DNA from: a virus
Length of the DNA: 22,950 nt
Reading direction: 5' to 3' (one strand)
IMG/VR virus record: IMGVR_UViG_3300022885_000080
Location: 1 to 22,950 of that record
The notes beneath the pieces were generated by a model, which had not been told where the DNA came from, made no database searches, and was given only the letters and a program-made list of their open reading frames with translations. Position numbers and translations under genes: made by a program. Below, piece by piece: positions 1,795 to 22,950 of this stretch. How positions within the stretch are numbered: position 1 is the first letter of the stretch; each line of letters opens with the position of its first letter.

Positions 1795-3075
1795 TTATGC
1801 ACTTGTTGAATATCCTGCTGCTGCTAGAGCATATCTTGCAGTTCCTACTCCAGTAACATCAGCTGCTACAACTCCAGAGTTTGAAACTAGATTAGTTAAT
1901 GAAGAATTTGAACCAGTACTACCATAACCAAAGATAGCCTTATCTCCTCCATACCCAGATGCTGCACATTGATTCCTAGCTGTTCCGACACCAGTTACAT
2001 CTGCTGCTACAACACCTGAACTTGAAATTAAATTTGATAAAGAAACATTAACATCACCTGCAGCAATTCCATATGCAAATAATGCTTGACCAGTTGAACC
2101 ATAACTTGCTGCTGCTGCACCATATCTAGCTGTTCCTACTCCTGTAGTATCACTTGCAACCACTCCTAAATTTGAAACTAAATTAGTTAATGAATAATGA
2201 ATAGGACCACCAGACCATATATAACCATATCCAAAGATAGCTTTATCTCCACCGTAACCACAAGCTGCTAGAGAACCTCTACCAGTACCTACACCAGATA
2301 CATCAGTTGCAACAACACCAACATTAGAAACTAAATTAGTCATAGAAACATATGAACCACTATAACCATAACCAAATATTGCCTTATCTCCTCCGTATGA
2401 AGTTGCTGCTAATTCATTCCTAGCTGTACCAACACCAGTAACATCTGCTGCTACCACACCACTATTATTAACAAGGTTAGTTATTGATGTAACACTTCCA
2501 GAATTTCCATAACCAAAAATGGCTTTATCACCACCATATCCAGCTGCTGCTGGTCTATTCCTAGCTGTTCCTACTCCTGTAACATCTGCTGCTACAACTC
2601 CAGAACTAGATACTAAATTGGTCATAGATACATTTGAACCAGTATAACCAAAACCAAATATAGCTTTTTGAGTTGGTGGTGCAGTAGGCTCTAATGCAGA
2701 AGCATCATCATCTAAAGGTAGCCAACCTTTAGTAGCATCTGAATAAACTATGTTTAATGATTGACCATCTGTATTATATTCCACTGTGTAAGTATCATCA
2801 TTACCTTGATAATTTAAACCATTTGAATCTATTATAATTTTGTTTGTTCCCCAAGTTCTTAAATAATCTATAAAAACTATTTGATCACCTTTTTCAGCAG
2901 AGCTTGGCAAAGTGATTGTGCAAGTATTTGAAGTCGTATTAATCCAGTAACCATTTCCAGCAACAGCAGTTAATGTTGAACCTGTAATAATTGTAGAGTT
3001 CCAATTAAGTCCAGCAGCACTTACTGCTATAACCCCAGAACTTCTTAATATATTACTTTGTACTATTCCACTCAT
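1795..3075 (-). CDS. Tail fibre / receptor-binding protein with six kelch-like repeats (paralogue 1)
   Basis: This 426-aa protein has two parts. Residues 1-136 are a beta-rich N-terminal domain of a type common in marine phage fibres, with NTTSNTCTITLPSSAEKGDQ, a 'DY.RTWGTN' segment, 'IDSNGLNYQG' and 'SLNIVYSDATKGW'. Residues 137-426 are exactly six repeats of 47, 47, 47, 52, 49 and 48 residues. Each runs KAIFGYG, a variable loop, TNLVSN.GVVA.D.TGVGTAR, then LAA.GYGGD. The GxGTAR...GYGGDKAIFGYG spacing resembles the kelch motif, so I predict a six-bladed beta-propeller. The start is ATG at 3075, with an AGGA site inside the last codons of the upstream paralogue (four bases between stop and start). 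It likely binds the host surface at the virion tip. Fibre identity is fairly sure; the fold is inferred. Confidence 0.9.
   Translation of the reverse strand: MSGIVQSNILRSSGVIAVSAAGLNWNSTIITGSTLTAVAGNGYWINTTSNTCTITLPSSAEKGDQIVFIDYLRTWGTNKIIIDSNGLNYQGNDDTYTVEYNTDGQSLNIVYSDATKGWLPLDDDASALEPTAPPTQKAIFGFGYTGSNVSMTNLVSSSGVVAADVTGVGTARNRPAAAGYGGDKAIFGYGNSGSVTSITNLVNNSGVVAADVTGVGTARNELAATSYGGDKAIFGYGYSGSYVSMTNLVSNVGVVATDVSGVGTGRGSLAACGYGGDKAIFGYGYIWSGGPIHYSLTNLVSNLGVVASDTTGVGTARYGAAAASYGSTGQALFAYGIAAGDVNVSLSNLISSSGVVAADVTGVGTARNQCAASGYGGDKAIFGYGSTGSNSSLTNLVSNSGVVAADVTGVGTARYALAAAGYSTSA
1798..2667 (-). repeat. Six tandem ~47-residue kelch-like coding repeats (paralogue 1)
   Basis: Six in-frame repeats occupy residues 137-426. 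The fourth is longest because its variable loop after GYG is extended by about five residues (YIWSGGPIHYSL). Framework residues are nearly constant and the loop following 'FGYG' differs in every copy. Confidence 0.9.
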
Positions 3076-3079
3076 AATT

Positions 3080-4330
3080 TTATCCTACTTTTGCTGCTGC
3101 TAATGTAGTTCTTGCAGTTCCTACACCCGTTGTATCACTTGCAACTACACCAGTATTAGAAACTAAATTAGTTAATGATAATTTTGCAACATTATTAAAT
3201 CCATACCCAAAGATTGCTTTATCTGTACTGTACCCAGCTGCTGCCAAATTATGTCTACCTGTACCCACTCCTGTTACATCTGCAGCAATTACTCCAGTAT
3301 TAGATACTAAGTTTGTTAATGAATAAGTAGCCGCACCATAACCAAAAATTGCTTTGTCAGTACCATAAGTTGTTGCTGCTAAAGTTTCCCTAGCGGTACC
3401 AACTCCTCCAACATCACTAGCTATCACCCCAGTATTTGAAACTTTATTGCTTAATGATACGGTACTACCAATATAACCATATCCGAAAATACCTTTATCT
3501 TCACCATAACCAGCTGCAGCCAATCCTCTTCTAGCAGTACCCACACCTCCTGTATCAGTTGCTACAACACCTGTAATAGAAACTTTATTAGACATAGATA
3601 AATTAGAACTTCCATCAAATCCATAAGCAAAAATACCTAGTTGTGTACCATAACTAGATGCAGCTATACTTCCTCTAGCAGTTCCAACACCTGTAGTATC
3701 TGCTGCTACTACACCACTATCTGAAACTAAATTTGTTATTGCAGTTACACTTGCAGTTTGACCAAAACCAAATAACGCTTTATTTCCGCCATATGTAGTT
3801 GCTGCTAAATAACCTCTAGCCGTACCTACACCTGTTACATCTGTTGCCACTACCCCTGAACTATTAACTAAATTAGTCATTGAAACATAAGGAGTAGTAA
3901 ATCCATATCCAAATATTGCTCTTAATGGGGGTGGTGCAACTCCTACATCTGCTACTGCATCATCTGAAACTGGAATCCAACCTTTAGTTGCGTCTGAATA
4001 TACGATTGATAAACTTTGACCAGCAGTAGAATAATCTACAGTATATGTATCTGGATCGCCTTGAAAATTTAATCCGTTAGAATCTATAATTAAGTTATTG
4101 ATTGACCAAGTTCTAGCATAATCTACTAATACAATTTGATCTCCAATTTCTGCTGAACTAGGTAAAGTTACAGTACAAGCATTAGATGTTGTATTAATAT
4201 AATATCCATTTGCTGCTTCTGCTGATAATGTTGTTCCAGTTATAACTGCTGAACTCCAGTTAAGACCAGCTACAGTAGGAGCTATAACTCCTGATGCTCT
4301 AAATACGTTGCTTGTTATTTGTCCACTCAT
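3080..4330 (-). CDS. Tail fibre / receptor-binding protein with six kelch-like repeats (paralogue 2)
   Basis: This 416-aa paralogue has the same layout: an N-terminal domain at residues 1-136 (NTTSNACTVTLPSSAEIGDQ, RTWSINN, IVYSDATKGW) and six repeats from residue 137 to the end. It shares the opening pattern MSG..(T)SN..R.SGVIA with both neighbours, so all three may attach to the same virion site. Its repeats use shorter loops than paralogue 1, for example 'GYGAATYSLTN' in the fifth. The extreme C-terminus differs: the last repeat ends AAAKVG instead of AAAGYST. In DNA this alters the end to GTAGGATAA, which also supplies the AGGA ribosome site for paralogue 1. Five bases separate it from the upstream paralogue. 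Host-receptor binding is inferred from family style and location. Confidence 0.9.
   Translation of the reverse strand: MSGQITSNVFRASGVIAPTVAGLNWSSAVITGTTLSAEAANGYYINTTSNACTVTLPSSAEIGDQIVLVDYARTWSINNLIIDSNGLNFQGDPDTYTVDYSTAGQSLSIVYSDATKGWIPVSDDAVADVGVAPPPLRAIFGYGFTTPYVSMTNLVNSSGVVATDVTGVGTARGYLAATTYGGNKALFGFGQTASVTAITNLVSDSGVVAADTTGVGTARGSIAASSYGTQLGIFAYGFDGSSNLSMSNKVSITGVVATDTGGVGTARRGLAAAGYGEDKGIFGYGYIGSTVSLSNKVSNTGVIASDVGGVGTARETLAATTYGTDKAIFGYGAATYSLTNLVSNTGVIAADVTGVGTGRHNLAAAGYSTDKAIFGYGFNNVAKLSLTNLVSNTGVVASDTTGVGTARTTLAAAKVG
3083..3922 (-). repeat. Six tandem kelch-like coding repeats (paralogue 2)
   Basis: Six repeats of about 45-48 residues fill residues 137-416. The third and fourth use SNKVS in place of the TNLVS framework. 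The last lacks the usual GYST end. Confidence 0.88.
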
Positions 4331-4335
4331 AATTT

Positions 4336-5595
4336 TTATGCCGTTGTTGAGTATCCTGCGGCTGCTAATCCAGTTCTTGCTGTACCAACTCCTGATACAT
4401 CTGTTCCTATTACTCCAACATTTGTAACCAAGTTAGTCATGTTTTGTCTGCCAGCATTATCACCATAACCAAATATAGCTTTATCACCACCATAAGAACA
4501 AGCCGCTGGACCTCCTCTAGCTGTTCCAACTCCTGTTACGTCTGCTGCAATTACTCCAAGATTTGAAACTAAATTTTTATGTGCTGTTTTTCCTGCTATA
4601 ACTCCATATGCAAAAACACCTTTATCTCCTCCATAACCAGCAGCTGCTCTGTAAGTAGTTGCAGTACCTACTCCAGTTCCGTCACTTTGAACTACACCTA
4701 AATTATTTACTATATTAGAAAGATTTGAACTAGCAGCACCAGAACCAAATGCAAATATAGCTTTGTCTCCACCAAATCCACAAGCTGATGAGTTTGTTCT
4801 AGCAGTTCCTACACCAGCAGTATCACTTGCTACAACACCTAAATTAGATACTAAATTTGATACTGCTGTAGCACTACCACTATTACCAAAAGCAAATATA
4901 GCTTTATCATTACCATATGAAGCGGCAGCTCTTTCGTTTGTTGCAGTACCAACTGCAGATACATCTGTTCCAACTACTCCTAAATTAGTAACTAAATTAG
5001 TCATACCTACATTTGATCCAGTAGTACCAAAACCAAATATTGCTTTATCCCCACCATAAGATGCTCCAGCTAAATATGCTCTTGGAGTACCAACACCAGT
5101 TACGTCTGATGCTACTACACCACTACTATTAATTAAATTACTTAATGAACTATAGCCACTAGAAGGTTGTCCATATGCAAATAAACCTTTCTGTGTTGGT
5201 GGTGCTGTATGATCAAAAGCTGAAACTATATCAGATGCTGGTGTCCAACCAACAGTTGCTCCAGAATAAACTAAATTAACTGCTTGACCACTTGTGTCAT
5301 AATCAACAATGTAAGCATCTGTTTCAGATTGAAATAATAAACCATTACTATCTATTGTGATTGCGTTAGTACCCCATGTTCTTGCATAGTCTGTAAGAAT
5401 AATCTGATCTCCAGCTGTCGCAGAACTTGGAAGTGTAATTGTACAAGCGTTTGAGGTAGTGTTAATAAAATAACCTTTACCAGCACTAACTGTTACAGTT
5501 GAAGCTGTAACTACTGGTTGCCAACTTAAACCACCAGCTGCTGCAACTATACTTCCAGATGATCTAAAAATATTGTCTTTTACCAATCCACTCAT
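4336..5595 (-). CDS. Tail fibre / receptor-binding protein with six kelch-like repeats (paralogue 3)
   Basis: This 419-aa protein is the first translated and most divergent of the three tandem fibre paralogues. The N-terminal domain (residues 1-135) keeps the signature NTTSNACTITLPSSATAGDQ, DYARTWGTN, IDSNGLLF and LVYSGATVGW. Six repeats follow from residue 136. Several use GVGTAT or AVGTAT where the others have GVGTAR, and FAFG where others have FGYG. The variable loops (QPSSGYSSL, TTGSNVGM, NSGSATAV, SGAASSNL, VIAGKTAH, DNAGRQNM) differ from those of both neighbours. It ends AAAGYSTTA like paralogue 1. A likely ribosome site (AGGA) is about 12 bases from the ATG. A receptor-binding fibre or spike is the best reading; the six-bladed fold is inferred. 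Confidence 0.9.
   Translation of the reverse strand: MSGLVKDNIFRSSGSIVAAAGGLSWQPVVTASTVTVSAGKGYFINTTSNACTITLPSSATAGDQIILTDYARTWGTNAITIDSNGLLFQSETDAYIVDYDTSGQAVNLVYSGATVGWTPASDIVSAFDHTAPPTQKGLFAYGQPSSGYSSLSNLINSSGVVASDVTGVGTPRAYLAGASYGGDKAIFGFGTTGSNVGMTNLVTNLGVVGTDVSAVGTATNERAAASYGNDKAIFAFGNSGSATAVSNLVSNLGVVASDTAGVGTARTNSSACGFGGDKAIFAFGSGAASSNLSNIVNNLGVVQSDGTGVGTATTYRAAAGYGGDKGVFAYGVIAGKTAHKNLVSNLGVIAADVTGVGTARGGPAACSYGGDKAIFGYGDNAGRQNMTNLVTNVGVIGTDVSGVGTARTGLAAAGYSTTA
4339..5190 (-). repeat. Six tandem kelch-like coding repeats (paralogue 3)
   Basis: Six repeats of about 47-48 residues occupy residues 136-419. They are more degenerate at the Arg of GVGTAR than in the other two genes, while the KAIF/KGVF strand and the Gly-Val-Val/Ile strand are kept. 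Confidence 0.88.
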
Positions 5596-18223: not shown

Positions 18224-19867
18224 TTAATATCCAAATATTTTATCTGCGGGGATAAAGTTAGTTGTTAAACTCTTATTACCGTATAACTTGTTAGCGTAAC
18301 TTGTATGCATAGGTCTACTCATACATCCATATCTTAGTGCATCATATGCGTGATCTTCTACGTGTGTATTAATATCCTCAGGGTTACTATCATCTAATGG
18401 TAGTGTAGGAAATGTTCTTAATAAATTTCTACAATTAGAAAATATACGAATACCTGGTTCTTTAGTCTTTTCGTTTACTATCTTTAATCTTTTGTGGATT
18501 TCTAGCTTTCCACTTATTCTACTTCGGGGAGTTCTATCAGAAGGTCTCCAACGACACCCAGCTTGAATCATTGTTTCTGCTATACTTGGACCCACATCTC
18601 CTCTCCGTGCCCATGTACTGGCGTCTAAGACCCCGTAGCGTATGTATTCTCCATGCTCTAAGGTTAGGACTTTCTTTGCGAAAACATCTGCAGTAATCTT
18701 TTGGGTATACAACTCTCTATAAATCCATAGATTATTATCATAATCAATAGCAAACCATAAACAACAAGCAGGAGAACTGTAGCCCCAGTCCGCAGCACGA
18801 AATCTCTGCCAGCCTTTAGGTATTTCAAATGGTTCAACAACATGTAAGTCCCTATCAAATTCAGAGAATGCTGCATTAGAGAATGCATCCCAGTCTCCAT
18901 TTAAAAATTGTTTTCTTTGTACTTCTGGTAATGATGATAACATTGCGTAGTAATCATCAGTTTGCATAAGGTACGGATTGTCTTGTAACTTAGCTGGTAT
19001 AAATCTTCTTGTTATATACTTTGTTCCTTTAGGTGTAGAAACCTCAATGTTAAAAGCTGTATTAGGATCTATAGGATCCACAAACATCTCTTTAACCCAT
19101 TGTGATCCAACATTACCTGGGTTACCTGTAGCCCTCATATAAACTGGTATACTAGGATCAACTGATCTAAGTGACGATCTTAGAAAATTATATATATCTG
19201 GCGAATGATATTGTGGAAGTTCGTCTATTCCTATCCATGTGTAAGACTGCCCTTGGTAACGTAATACGTCTGTCATGTTCTCTGCATAACCAAACTCTAT
19301 TTTTGCTCCTGATGGGAATCTCCATTCTTTTTCCTGCTCTCTCCATTTTGCTCCTGGATATGCTCTTGAGTATAATCGTTGAGAATGATTAATCAAATCT
19401 CTTAACTCTGGCATAGTTCTACGAAGTAGTAGACAACGATGATGTTCTTTATGACAGTACCTTAGAGGATCTATTAACATGGCGTATGATTTACCACCAC
19501 CTCTTGCACCCCCGTAAAACACTTCTCGTTCTGATGCTGCTAGGAAATCTCTTTGTGGACCTTTATTAGGTTGAAAGATTATATCCTTATCAGCTAGATG
19601 TTCCTGTACGTTTGCTGGAACTTCATCTATTACGTCTTGGGTTATAAGCTGCTGCTCTCTTCCATCCAATACTTTGTCAATGGTTAACAATTTATCCTTG
19701 ACATTTTTTGCATGGGTCTTTGCTGAACGTAAAGCTTGTTCTGCCTTAGCAACTTTTTTACGTGTTCGTGCTATTGCTTGTTTAGCTGACTGCTTGGCTT
19801 TGGTCTTGACTTTTTTCTTTGGCTTTGGAAGTGCTATCTCTGGTAACTCTTTTTCTAAGTCCGACAT
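18224..19867 (-). CDS. terL: Terminase large subunit (ATPase/nuclease DNA packaging motor)
   Basis: This 547-aa protein powers DNA packaging and cuts the concatemer. Counting from ATG 19867, Walker A is GGARGGGKS at residues 119-127 and Walker B is IGIDE at 212-216. A coupling-type motif lies at RATGNPGN. The nuclease domain has its three acidic positions: D360 in AADWGYSSP, D415 in GVLDAS and D509 in EDHAYDALRYG. Residues 15-75 are a lysine-rich helix (KKKVKTKAKQSAKQAIARTR). A TTG 42 bases upstream would add 14 residues, but the ATG is preferred. The next in-frame ATG lies past Walker A, so the 86-base overlap with the upstream helix-turn-helix gene cannot be avoided. All key residues are present, so the motor should be functional. 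Confidence 0.95.
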   Translation of the reverse strand: MSDLEKELPEIALPKPKKKVKTKAKQSAKQAIARTRKKVAKAEQALRSAKTHAKNVKDKLLTIDKVLDGREQQLITQDVIDEVPANVQEHLADKDIIFQPNKGPQRDFLAASEREVFYGGARGGGKSYAMLIDPLRYCHKEHHRCLLLRRTMPELRDLINHSQRLYSRAYPGAKWREQEKEWRFPSGAKIEFGYAENMTDVLRYQGQSYTWIGIDELPQYHSPDIYNFLRSSLRSVDPSIPVYMRATGNPGNVGSQWVKEMFVDPIDPNTAFNIEVSTPKGTKYITRRFIPAKLQDNPYLMQTDDYYAMLSSLPEVQRKQFLNGDWDAFSNAAFSEFDRDLHVVEPFEIPKGWQRFRAADWGYSSPACCLWFAIDYDNNLWIYRELYTQKITADVFAKKVLTLEHGEYIRYGVLDASTWARRGDVGPSIAETMIQAGCRWRPSDRTPRSRISGKLEIHKRLKIVNEKTKEPGIRIFSNCRNLLRTFPTLPLDDSNPEDINTHVEDHAYDALRYGCMSRPMHTSYANKLYGNKSLTTNFIPADKIFGY

Positions 19868-20051
19868 ATGATATGTATCTTTTTGTTTTTGCTGATAACC
19901 AAATAGCAACCTCTCGGTATGAACATGTTTTTAAAAAATTCTTTGCTTCTTCTAATGCTTCTAATTCAAATTGTATTGGTTCAATATAATCTGTGTCTTC
20001 TGCTAGCTTGTATCCAAAGGGGATAGTTCTAGATTTTCTTTTAATCACCAT
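19782..20051 (-). CDS. 89-aa putative helix-turn-helix protein overlapping terL
   Basis: The sequence begins MVIKRKSRTIPFGYKLAEDT, then YIEPIQFELEALEEAKNFLK and SYREVAIWLSAKTKRYISYV, followed by GLRKRV. The 'PFGY...E.I..ELEAL..A......SYREVA.WLS.KTGR.IS..GLRKR' layout resembles the recombinase-type helix-turn-helix region, and I recall related small proteins next to terminase genes in marine phages. It could recognise packaging DNA or assist TerS/TerL. Its ATG overlaps the 22-aa microprotein by 11 bases. Its last 86 bases are also the start of terL in the +1 frame, where the tail becomes low-complexity (STSKAKEKSQDQSQAVS). The domain assignment is inference. Confidence 0.78.
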   Translation of the reverse strand: MVIKRKSRTIPFGYKLAEDTDYIEPIQFELEALEEAKNFLKTCSYREVAIWLSAKTKRYISYVGLRKRVTRDSTSKAKEKSQDQSQAVS

Positions 20052-20854: not shown

Positions 20855-21286
20855 TTAATCCTGTATCGGAGTTACGATTGATTCTTCTGGTTCATCTTTT
20901 GCTGGTAATATAAATATACCATGTTTTAAATTCATATTAATATCTAATTGATCTTTCTTAGCTACACCAACTCTATCTAATATTTGTTTTGCTGCTTCCA
21001 TTCGTATACTAGCGTGTGGAGTTGTTCCATCTTCGTCTAACAAGTGTACCATTCTAGTTGCAGCCTTCGCAGAATGTATGGCTAAATAATTTTCTGCTCT
21101 TTTAACAATCTCGTCTTTTAAATTACGTAGAACTTTAGGATATGAATGTTCTGAATAACCTGCTAACTCTCCTGCCTGTCTGGGATTTCCTTGGGCTTCT
21201 CCGAATAATGCGTCTAGAAACTTTTCCTGTGAGACCGTCAAGCTTTTCTTTTGAGTATTTGTTGTAATAGAATCCATTGTTTGCAT
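20855..21286 (-). CDS. terS: Probable terminase small subunit
   Basis: This 143-aa protein has a TerS-like architecture. Residues 17-55 form an N-terminal helix-turn-helix candidate (LTVSQEKFLDALFGEAQGNP, then RQAGELAGYSEHSYPKVLRN), followed by oligomerisation helices (KRAENYLAIHSAKAATRMVH, ASIRMEAAKQILDRVGVAKK) and a C-terminal TerL-binding-type tail (HGIFILPAKDEPEE). The 'I.LP....' tail after '(A).QILDR.G..K' is typical of small terminases. ATG at 21286 has GGAG 7 bases upstream; another ATG three codons later is less well placed. TerS would recognise phage DNA (pac or cos region) and stimulate TerL. Four small genes separate it from terL. Confidence 0.85.
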   Translation of the reverse strand: MQTMDSITTNTQKKSLTVSQEKFLDALFGEAQGNPRQAGELAGYSEHSYPKVLRNLKDEIVKRAENYLAIHSAKAATRMVHLLDEDGTTPHASIRMEAAKQILDRVGVAKKDQLDINMNLKHGIFILPAKDEPEESIVTPIQD

Positions 21287-21963: not shown

Positions 21964-21992
21964 AGTATACACACGAATATCACTTTTGTCAA
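21964..21992 (-). promoter_or_regulatory. Strong sigma70-type promoter for the packaging/structural operon
   Basis: On the minus strand TTGACA (21987-21992) and TATACT (21964-21969) are separated by exactly 17 bases, with an A/T-rich segment behind the -35 that can act as UP element. Transcription should start near 21957. The next gene is the lysine-rich protein followed by terS. No other promoter of this quality was noticed downstream, so it may serve the whole block with host RNA polymerase. Confidence 0.85.
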
Positions 21993-22043: not shown

Positions 22044-22072
22044 TTGACAAAAGGTGAAAGTGGGTGTATAAT
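22044..22072 (+). promoter_or_regulatory. Consensus sigma70 promoter firing rightward, away from the operon
   Basis: TTGACA (22044-22049), 17-base spacer, TATAAT (22067-22072): a perfect consensus. It shares TTGACAAAAG, a 10-base gap and GTGTATA(A/C)TAG with the minus-strand promoter 52 bases away, so the two look like inverted copies of one element. No plus-strand gene lies downstream in the window. Confidence 0.85.
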
Positions 22073-22087
22073 AGTATTAACAATACT
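22073..22087. promoter_or_regulatory. Perfect inverted repeat at the start site of the plus-strand promoter (operator candidate)
   Basis: AGTATT-AAC-AATACT directly follows the -10 box and spans the expected start near 22079. Because one arm lies in the untranscribed discriminator, it would act as DNA, for example as a repressor or activator site, rather than as an RNA hairpin. Confidence 0.5.
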
Positions 22088-22132
22088 CAGGGGGGGTTAT
22101 ATACATATAGTATCCATAAATATCCATACCCC

Positions 22133-22148
22133 CTAGGGTATACCCTAG
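22133..22148. repeat. Perfect 16-bp palindrome CTAGGGTATACCCTAG
   Basis: The sequence equals its own reverse complement. In RNA it folds as a 6-bp stem with a UAUA loop. CCCTAGTA recurs nearby at 22143, 22180 and 22293, so the half-site itself is repeated in the intergenic region. Confidence 0.7.
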
Positions 22149-22460
22149 TATCTTGTCGGGAGATATACAGAATATTAACCCCTAGTATATAGCCACAGGG
22201 TGGTTTACAGGGGAATTAGGGATTTTAGTATGAGTGTATATGTATATATGTACAGCCCCCCCTAGCACCCTGCATACCCCCCTGAATAATATCCCTAGTA
22301 AGTACCTTGAGAAATTACTGGGTATATTTTTGGTTTATTACTGGGGGAATATTGTGGTTTCGTTTGGTGAGAGTTAGGGGGGTGTTAAAATTTTGTAAGT
22401 GTTAGCCTAGTTGCTACCCACATATTAACCCTGATATGAATTGAGACAGTACCTAGTTAA

Positions 22461-22484
22461 ATCATAGTAGTATGATAATCATAC
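22461..22484. repeat. Three alternating ATCATA/TATGAT half-sites
   Basis: ATCATA (22461-22466), GTAG, then GTATGATAATCATAC (22470-22484), itself a 15-bp palindrome about a central A. The middle half-site can pair with either neighbour. This is the pattern expected of cooperative operator sites or of two alternative hairpins. Confidence 0.55.
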
Positions 22485-22514
22485 CGAGATTAGAGCTGTA
22501 TTTTAATAACGCCC

Positions 22515-22555
22515 AAAAAAAAACCCTCATACAAAATTAATTGCATAAGGGTTTT
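22515..22555 (-). terminator. Intrinsic terminator of the right-edge gene (possibly bidirectional)
   Basis: Reading the minus strand, a 13-bp stem (22543-22555 with 22520-22532, containing CCC/GGG) with a 10-base loop is followed by a run of T (nine Ts including the stem base, 22515-22523). It lies 31 bases beyond the stop at 22586. In the other direction the stem has a C-A mismatch and a weaker TTTTAATTT tail. Confidence 0.88.
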
Positions 22556-22585
22556 AATTTGATTTGTAATTGTTCGATTGTTTAT

Positions 22586-22950
22586 TTATTGATTAACTGC
22601 TTTCTTAATACTGCCGTCTATCTGTAAATTTTGTTCACAGTAGTCGTAAGTATTTCTCACTAACTCACTTGATAACAATTGTTTAATATTTAAAATATCT
22701 TCAATTGCTTGTTCACTTAACAAACTAAAAAACTGCTCGTACTTTTTGTTTTTAGCTAACTCAATAACATGAGATAAGTCCTTAACAAAATTACTTGCTG
22801 ATGTTTTTATATTTGATTTATTGCCTTTGCTACCATTACTTGACGCAGTACCGTTGAAACGCTTCCACATCTCATCAATGGCAGTTGTATTAACAGGAAT
22901 TAAAGTTGTTTCTTTGTTAGGCTCACTAACAAATTTCGCTTTAATTCGCT
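22586..22950 (-). CDS. Unrecognised gene, C-terminal 121 residues (5' end outside window)
   Basis: The frame is open from the right edge to TAA at 22586. An internal ATG at 22870 would give 94 residues. The upstream codons (RIKAKFVSEPNKETTLIPVN, then TTAIDEMW) look equally protein-like, so the true start is probably outside. The visible part is polar, then helical: ASNFVKDLSHVIELAKNKKY, EQFFSLLSEQAIEDILNIKQ, and it ends with DGSIKKAVNQ. No motif is recognised. It is the last gene of the preceding transcription unit, ended by the terminator at 22515-22555, and so likely belongs to an earlier-expressed module than the structural block. Confidence 0.75.
   Translation of the reverse strand, partial: RIKAKFVSEPNKETTLIPVNTTAIDEMWKRFNGTASSNGSKGNKSNIKTSASNFVKDLSHVIELAKNKKYEQFFSLLSEQAIEDILNIKQLLSSELVRNTYDYCEQNLQIDGSIKKAVNQ

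Follow-up and report, generated by a model that had tools for sequence, protein, structure and literature searches.

A conserved host-type promoter and non-coding DNA blocks mark a possible packaging junction in HMO-2011-type podoviruses

What purpose does a perfect sigma-70 promoter serve in a phage genome where it faces away from the late genes? We addressed this question in an entire IMG/VR record of 22,950 bp, a virus genome fragment analysed over its full length (the window). Its late genes lie on the minus strand throughout and include those encoding the capsid, the portal, the terminase large subunit (TerL, 18224-19909; 74% identity to HTVC033P) and a probable terminase small subunit (TerS, 20855-21286; PHROG 51, E = 1.2e-4), and a further minus-strand gene of no clear family (22586-22948) is truncated by the contig end. 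The portal belongs to the SU10 family (SU10_portal Pfam, E = 1.8e-31), its distant matches are dominated by N4-like phages, and a TerS scan of host genomes returned no relatives. HTVC033P, a SAR11 phage in culture, belongs to the HMO-2011-type group (PMC9038755), and the window probably represents an HMO-2011-type podovirus with a SAR11 host. As a separate observation, three adjacent genes of ~420 aa (1795-5595) share repeat units like TNLVSNxGVVAxDVTGVGTAR and are apparently duplicated fibre or surface genes.

The promoter, TTGACA-N17-TATAAT (22044-22072, plus strand), reads away from the late operon. An earlier note on this DNA had described a rightward consensus promoter in a region free of plus-strand genes, and both observations stand: the promoter is the sole 12/12 sigma-70 match in the window, and the absence of plus-strand genes holds for open reading frames of at least 60 aa. 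The hexamers are invariant in relatives; in our first set, taken upstream of orf160 homologues, the hexamers and the GGTGTATAAT end were intact in 28/28 intact regions, with a varying spacer core. Overall, the hexamers were kept in ~90 loci from related marine phage contigs, and since many of the later loci were collected through the promoter pattern itself, the first 28 regions constitute the unbiased test. In HTVC033P, an unannotated intergenic stretch at 51.5-51.8 kb is 66% identical to the window at the DNA level and contains the conserved core described below, although its promoter matches at 11/12 and differs in the first hexamer (TAGACA); the published account of this phage makes no mention of a promoter, intergenic or non-coding element (PMC9038755). 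The divergent late-operon promoter (TTGACA-17-TATACT; 21964-21992, minus strand) partly repeats the plus promoter region in inverted orientation; self-comparison aligns the two as an imperfect inverted repeat, with a 71% match over 119 nt. Elsewhere in HTVC033P (L038), two early TTGACA promoters (608-657 and 1244-1287) lie within a terminator-like hairpin stem, which points to combined terminator-promoter elements.

Across the predicted start site (~22079) lies a palindrome, AGTATTAACAATACT (22073-22087, plus strand), the only mismatch-free copy in the window. Its arms covary strongly in relatives (permutation p < 1/4000), and partner-swap tests of all segment pairs gave a strong signal only here. 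The letters of the palindrome differ between relatives, with both arms changing together (ATAACTATAGGTTAT, GTACATAGGTAC, GTTCCATAGGAAC), much like a fast-changing operator or cruciform. An operator role through palindrome copies elsewhere in the 22.9-kb window was also considered, and no copies were found above chance. The initially transcribed sequence would then enter a G-run (G7; 22090-22096, plus strand), which corresponds to a conserved G-rich tract in relatives.

We further compared the sequence past the promoter among relatives. In pairwise comparison, the first 215 nt show a divergence similar to that of TerS third codon positions and contain few gaps, whereas 22288-22520 is much less alike between relatives. 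The element of about 480 nt proposed earlier is therefore too long, as conservation extends to ~22285 and is followed by a block at 22377-22395. The strongly conserved blocks comprise, in order, a G-run, CCCCCTAGGG, GTCGGGAGAT..AGAATA, GGTTTACA, ATTTT, TATATA, a G/C-run cassette, CTGCxTACCCC and, further on, GGGG..AATTTTTG. On the plus strand of the window, conserved blocks ACCCCCTAGGG... and GTCGGGAGATATACAGAATATT (22128-22176) are followed by three core blocks: block 1, GGTGGTTTACAGGGG...GGGATTTTAG (22199-22228; profile E = 1.2e-9), with a single strong copy in both the window and HTVC033P; block 2, TATATGTATATA with the C/G-run cassette (C7 at 22256-22262) and CTGCATACCCCCC (22236-22282); and block 3, GGTTTCGTTTGG...GGGGGG...AAAATTTTG (22356-22395), in which TTTTG is present in all aligned relatives and after which (after 22395) a genome-end cut is predicted. 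The distance between blocks 1 and 2 is near-fixed even in distant groups, and the cassette is hypervariable, carrying a C-run, a G-run or both in close relatives with identical flanks; this fixed spacing together with the flipping of C- and G-runs suits a DNA element better than RNA helices. In L006, L007/L043, L008 and L014, a cassette of ~35-40 bp at +160 to +200 (window 22229-22270) is wholly different between identical flanks, and L008 carries the allele of the window, suggesting cassette recombination. L097 and HTVC104P (L036) each have two intergenic copies of the GGTTWACA/AGTTTACA core motif.

Every group examined has the element upstream of its first late gene (TerS in most cases), at the early/late junction; one minus-strand gene separates it from the early genes in HTVC033P and none does in HTVC104P, and in CRP-1 TerS is ~5 kb distant. 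The core profile also matched HMO-2011, CRP-1, CRP-345 and HTVC103P, and weakly CRP-9. Four of these, the non-SAR11 phages HMO-2011, CRP-1, CRP-345 and CRP-9, carry the core at the early/late junction, and block 1 is also present in the first three, yet none of the four has a plus sigma-70 promoter above shuffled background. A core that occurs in four phages with no visible plus promoter is not merely the body of an RNA gene. Judged from this distribution, the core probably acts as DNA and is likely older than the promoter.

These results bear directly on the alternative that survives best, which we nevertheless consider doubtful: a phage non-coding RNA of ~200-330 nt starting at ~22079 and acting as a regulator, protein decoy or packaging RNA. 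It would account for a conserved perfect promoter with no gene downstream, the transcript would contain the conserved sequence blocks, and a 5' hairpin starting from the predicted +1 was detected in relatives without the start-site palindrome (permutation p = 0.011). However, the core occurs without the promoter in the four phages above, and the fold is not conserved. The earlier note had proposed two long-range helices (22089-22098 with 22254-22263; 22274-22285 with 22374-22385); both complementarities exist base by base, including three G-U pairs, but they are not special relative to shuffles or to the other strand. Folding energy was equally below that of shuffles on both strands (z = -2.83 for plus, -2.82 for minus), so that the signal reflects the complementarity of G- and C-runs. 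Covariation across 37 relatives spoke against helix 1, in which 52.1% of cells were paired compared with 52.7% after shuffling, slid registers were equally good, and the position predicted for the C-run partner holds a G-run in several relatives. Helix 2 received marginal support (54.5% paired vs. 50.9% shuffled, 8/500 shuffles; permutation p = 0.04), which counts for the RNA, but pairing rose to 57.2% after a slide of +1, and nearly half of the cells were unpaired at the proposed register. RNAalifold consensus structures for several subsets of relatives were near zero, with the reverse strand equally good, and Rfam gave no match at the gathering score, its weak matches (E up to 5) being unrelated small or terminator-like families.

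The proposed 3' end of the RNA, a hairpin at 22520-22555, is indeed present, but its T-run follows on the minus strand, in relatives as well as in the window. Because the U-tract would thus be on the minus strand, we assign the hairpin as a Rho-independent terminator of the opposing minus-strand gene (22520-22555, minus strand), which places the terminator on the wrong strand for a plus-strand RNA. A second copy of this minus-strand terminator hairpin (CCCCCAAGCTAAGCTAAGGGGGGGCTAG) is inserted within the element in L027 (~2003-2353, minus strand). What survives of the RNA reading is thus a strong, conserved promoter directed into a non-coding stretch, which is well supported; the folded regulatory RNA is not, given the helices, the strand-equal folding energy and the wrong-strand terminator. 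Among the three roles suggested earlier, assistance in packaging comes closest, with the evidence favouring a DNA element over a proven RNA.

We then focused on genome ends. The relative G001 (54,497 bp, a size that fits a complete genome of the group at 53-55 kb) carries a 146-bp sequence at both ends, identical at 144/146 positions, which spans core block 2 to the end of core block 3. The homologous stretch of the window, with boundaries predicted from this repeat, is ~22242-22395, and the conserved promoter lies 170 bp ahead of this putative terminal repeat and reads into it. G001 is the only near-complete genome to show the repeat; in metagenome data, contig ends can arise from strain variation, which would also fit the two mismatches. 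Judged from contig ends alone, three distinct contigs (G001 and two partial ones) stop at the identical base, after GAATTTTTG, a coincidence with a chance probability of ~0.003-0.02 depending on the number of ends counted. Nine long contigs of related groups, whose ends were also checked, have TerS internal and break elsewhere, and near-complete contigs of a related group run through the element. In two of the nine, the ends overlap exactly, by 69 and 115 bp, at other places, which circular assembly or permutation would also yield. A lambda-type cos site was considered for the G/C-rich cassette and set aside, the observed repeat being ~146 bp rather than a short overhang. A literature search returned no description of an RNA, of genome ends or of a packaging site for the HMO-2011-type group.

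Together, these findings are best read, with even confidence, as marking the packaging site of an HMO-2011-type podovirus: a concatemer junction with a terminal repeat, into which a host-type promoter would direct transcription. In its favour, TerS and TerL are neighbours of the element, which is located where the late operon begins, and the terminase and portal types match those of short-repeat phages. Against it, conserved blocks are not in themselves a demonstration of terminase binding, TerS is distant in CRP-1, and HMO-2011 was deposited as circular. We keep our confidence at this level, and retain three rivals (an RNA gene, a replication origin and a headful pac site), because the evidence for the repeat comes from one near-complete and two partial contigs, other contigs break elsewhere, the HMO-2011 record is circular and blocks 1 and 3 do not match as one motif by profile. 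The last point also led us to drop the idea of two equal terminase sites flanking the repeat, since the block 1 profile does not recover block 3 (modest similarity only).

A headful pac site, or a late-operon promoter/operator region without fixed ends, in which the coincident ends would be assembly breaks, is unlikely in our assessment. It is in keeping with the circular HMO-2011 record and with the operator-like start-site palindrome, and assemblies could break because of the hypervariable cassette and the variable gene downstream; however, three independent contigs break at one base, where a conserved block ends, and the 22.9-kb window holds no second copy of the palindrome. Slightly less likely still is a transcription-primed replication origin, in which host-polymerase RNA with a G-rich start would form an R-loop and prime DNA synthesis: the strong promoter, the G7 near the start, the non-coding early/late junction and, in HTVC104P and HTVC115P, a very A+T-rich tract downstream of the core would suit it, but this tract is not evident in the window or HTVC033P, the core occurs without the promoter, and third-position GC skew in HTVC033P gives no clear origin signal, since gene direction and a flip at 32-44 kb both confound it. 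The flip itself is a change of sign within the uniformly minus-strand late block of HTVC033P (L038), near the tail genes.

If the stretch is a packaging junction, a short terminal repeat (~150 bp; window ~22242-22395) would link replicated genomes head to tail. Terminase, which is encoded nearby, may recognise the blocks on either side (GGTTTACA...ATTTT; TATATA with the G/C-run and CTGCxTACCCC; GGGG..AAAATTTTG), as their conservation suggests, and would cut at the conserved blocks flanking the repeat. The strong host-type promoter just outside the repeat would send host RNA polymerase across the junction, and this transcription would probably assist terminase by opening the junction, pausing there or marking it, by analogy with T7 RNA polymerase. 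A folded regulator is the less likely role for the RNA itself, which would rather be a by-product or a primer. We propose more tentatively, and with less than even confidence, that phages lacking their own polymerase place a consensus host sigma-70 promoter here for junction transcription, and that terminase depends on this transcription (or on its short G-rich RNA) to locate, copy or cut the repeat.

In the surface ocean, HMO-2011-type phages rank among the dominant viruses (PMC9038755), and the element offers a concrete location in which to look for their genome ends and packaging site. Host transcription across the cutting site may matter for packaging, and the cultured HTVC033P makes the host-polymerase idea testable.

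Known packaging systems provide several points of comparison. If the transcript matters, the element would resemble the phi29 pRNA as a possible phage RNA tied to packaging, whereas neither an Rfam match nor a conserved fold was found here. The terminal repeat of T7 is ~160 bp. At the T7/T3 concatemer junction, the paused phage polymerase and gp18/gp19 together initiate maturation and packaging (PMC3276506). Like that junction, the present element is non-coding, holds a putative terminal repeat (~150 bp) and has predicted transcription through it; unlike it, the promoter is of the host sigma-70 type, and the element lies beside TerS at a divergent early/late junction. A search of HTVC033P and three relatives for the single-subunit RNA polymerase PF00940 gave no match, in a search whose control also matched nowhere. 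The C3 podoviruses SU10 and phiEco32, to which the window is linked by a related portal family, have 193-bp terminal repeats and lack their own RNA polymerase, and the SU10 authors state that such phages process concatemers in an unknown way (PMC4281155). Their genomes are larger, and the part of that account covered here describes no conserved promoter-junction element for them (PMC4281155). The element bears on the question posed there, namely how concatemers are processed by phages without their own polymerase when T7 uses a phage polymerase (PMC4281155). By analogy with T7, host polymerase could take on the corresponding job at the junction of HMO-2011-type phages, as the conserved promoter suggests.
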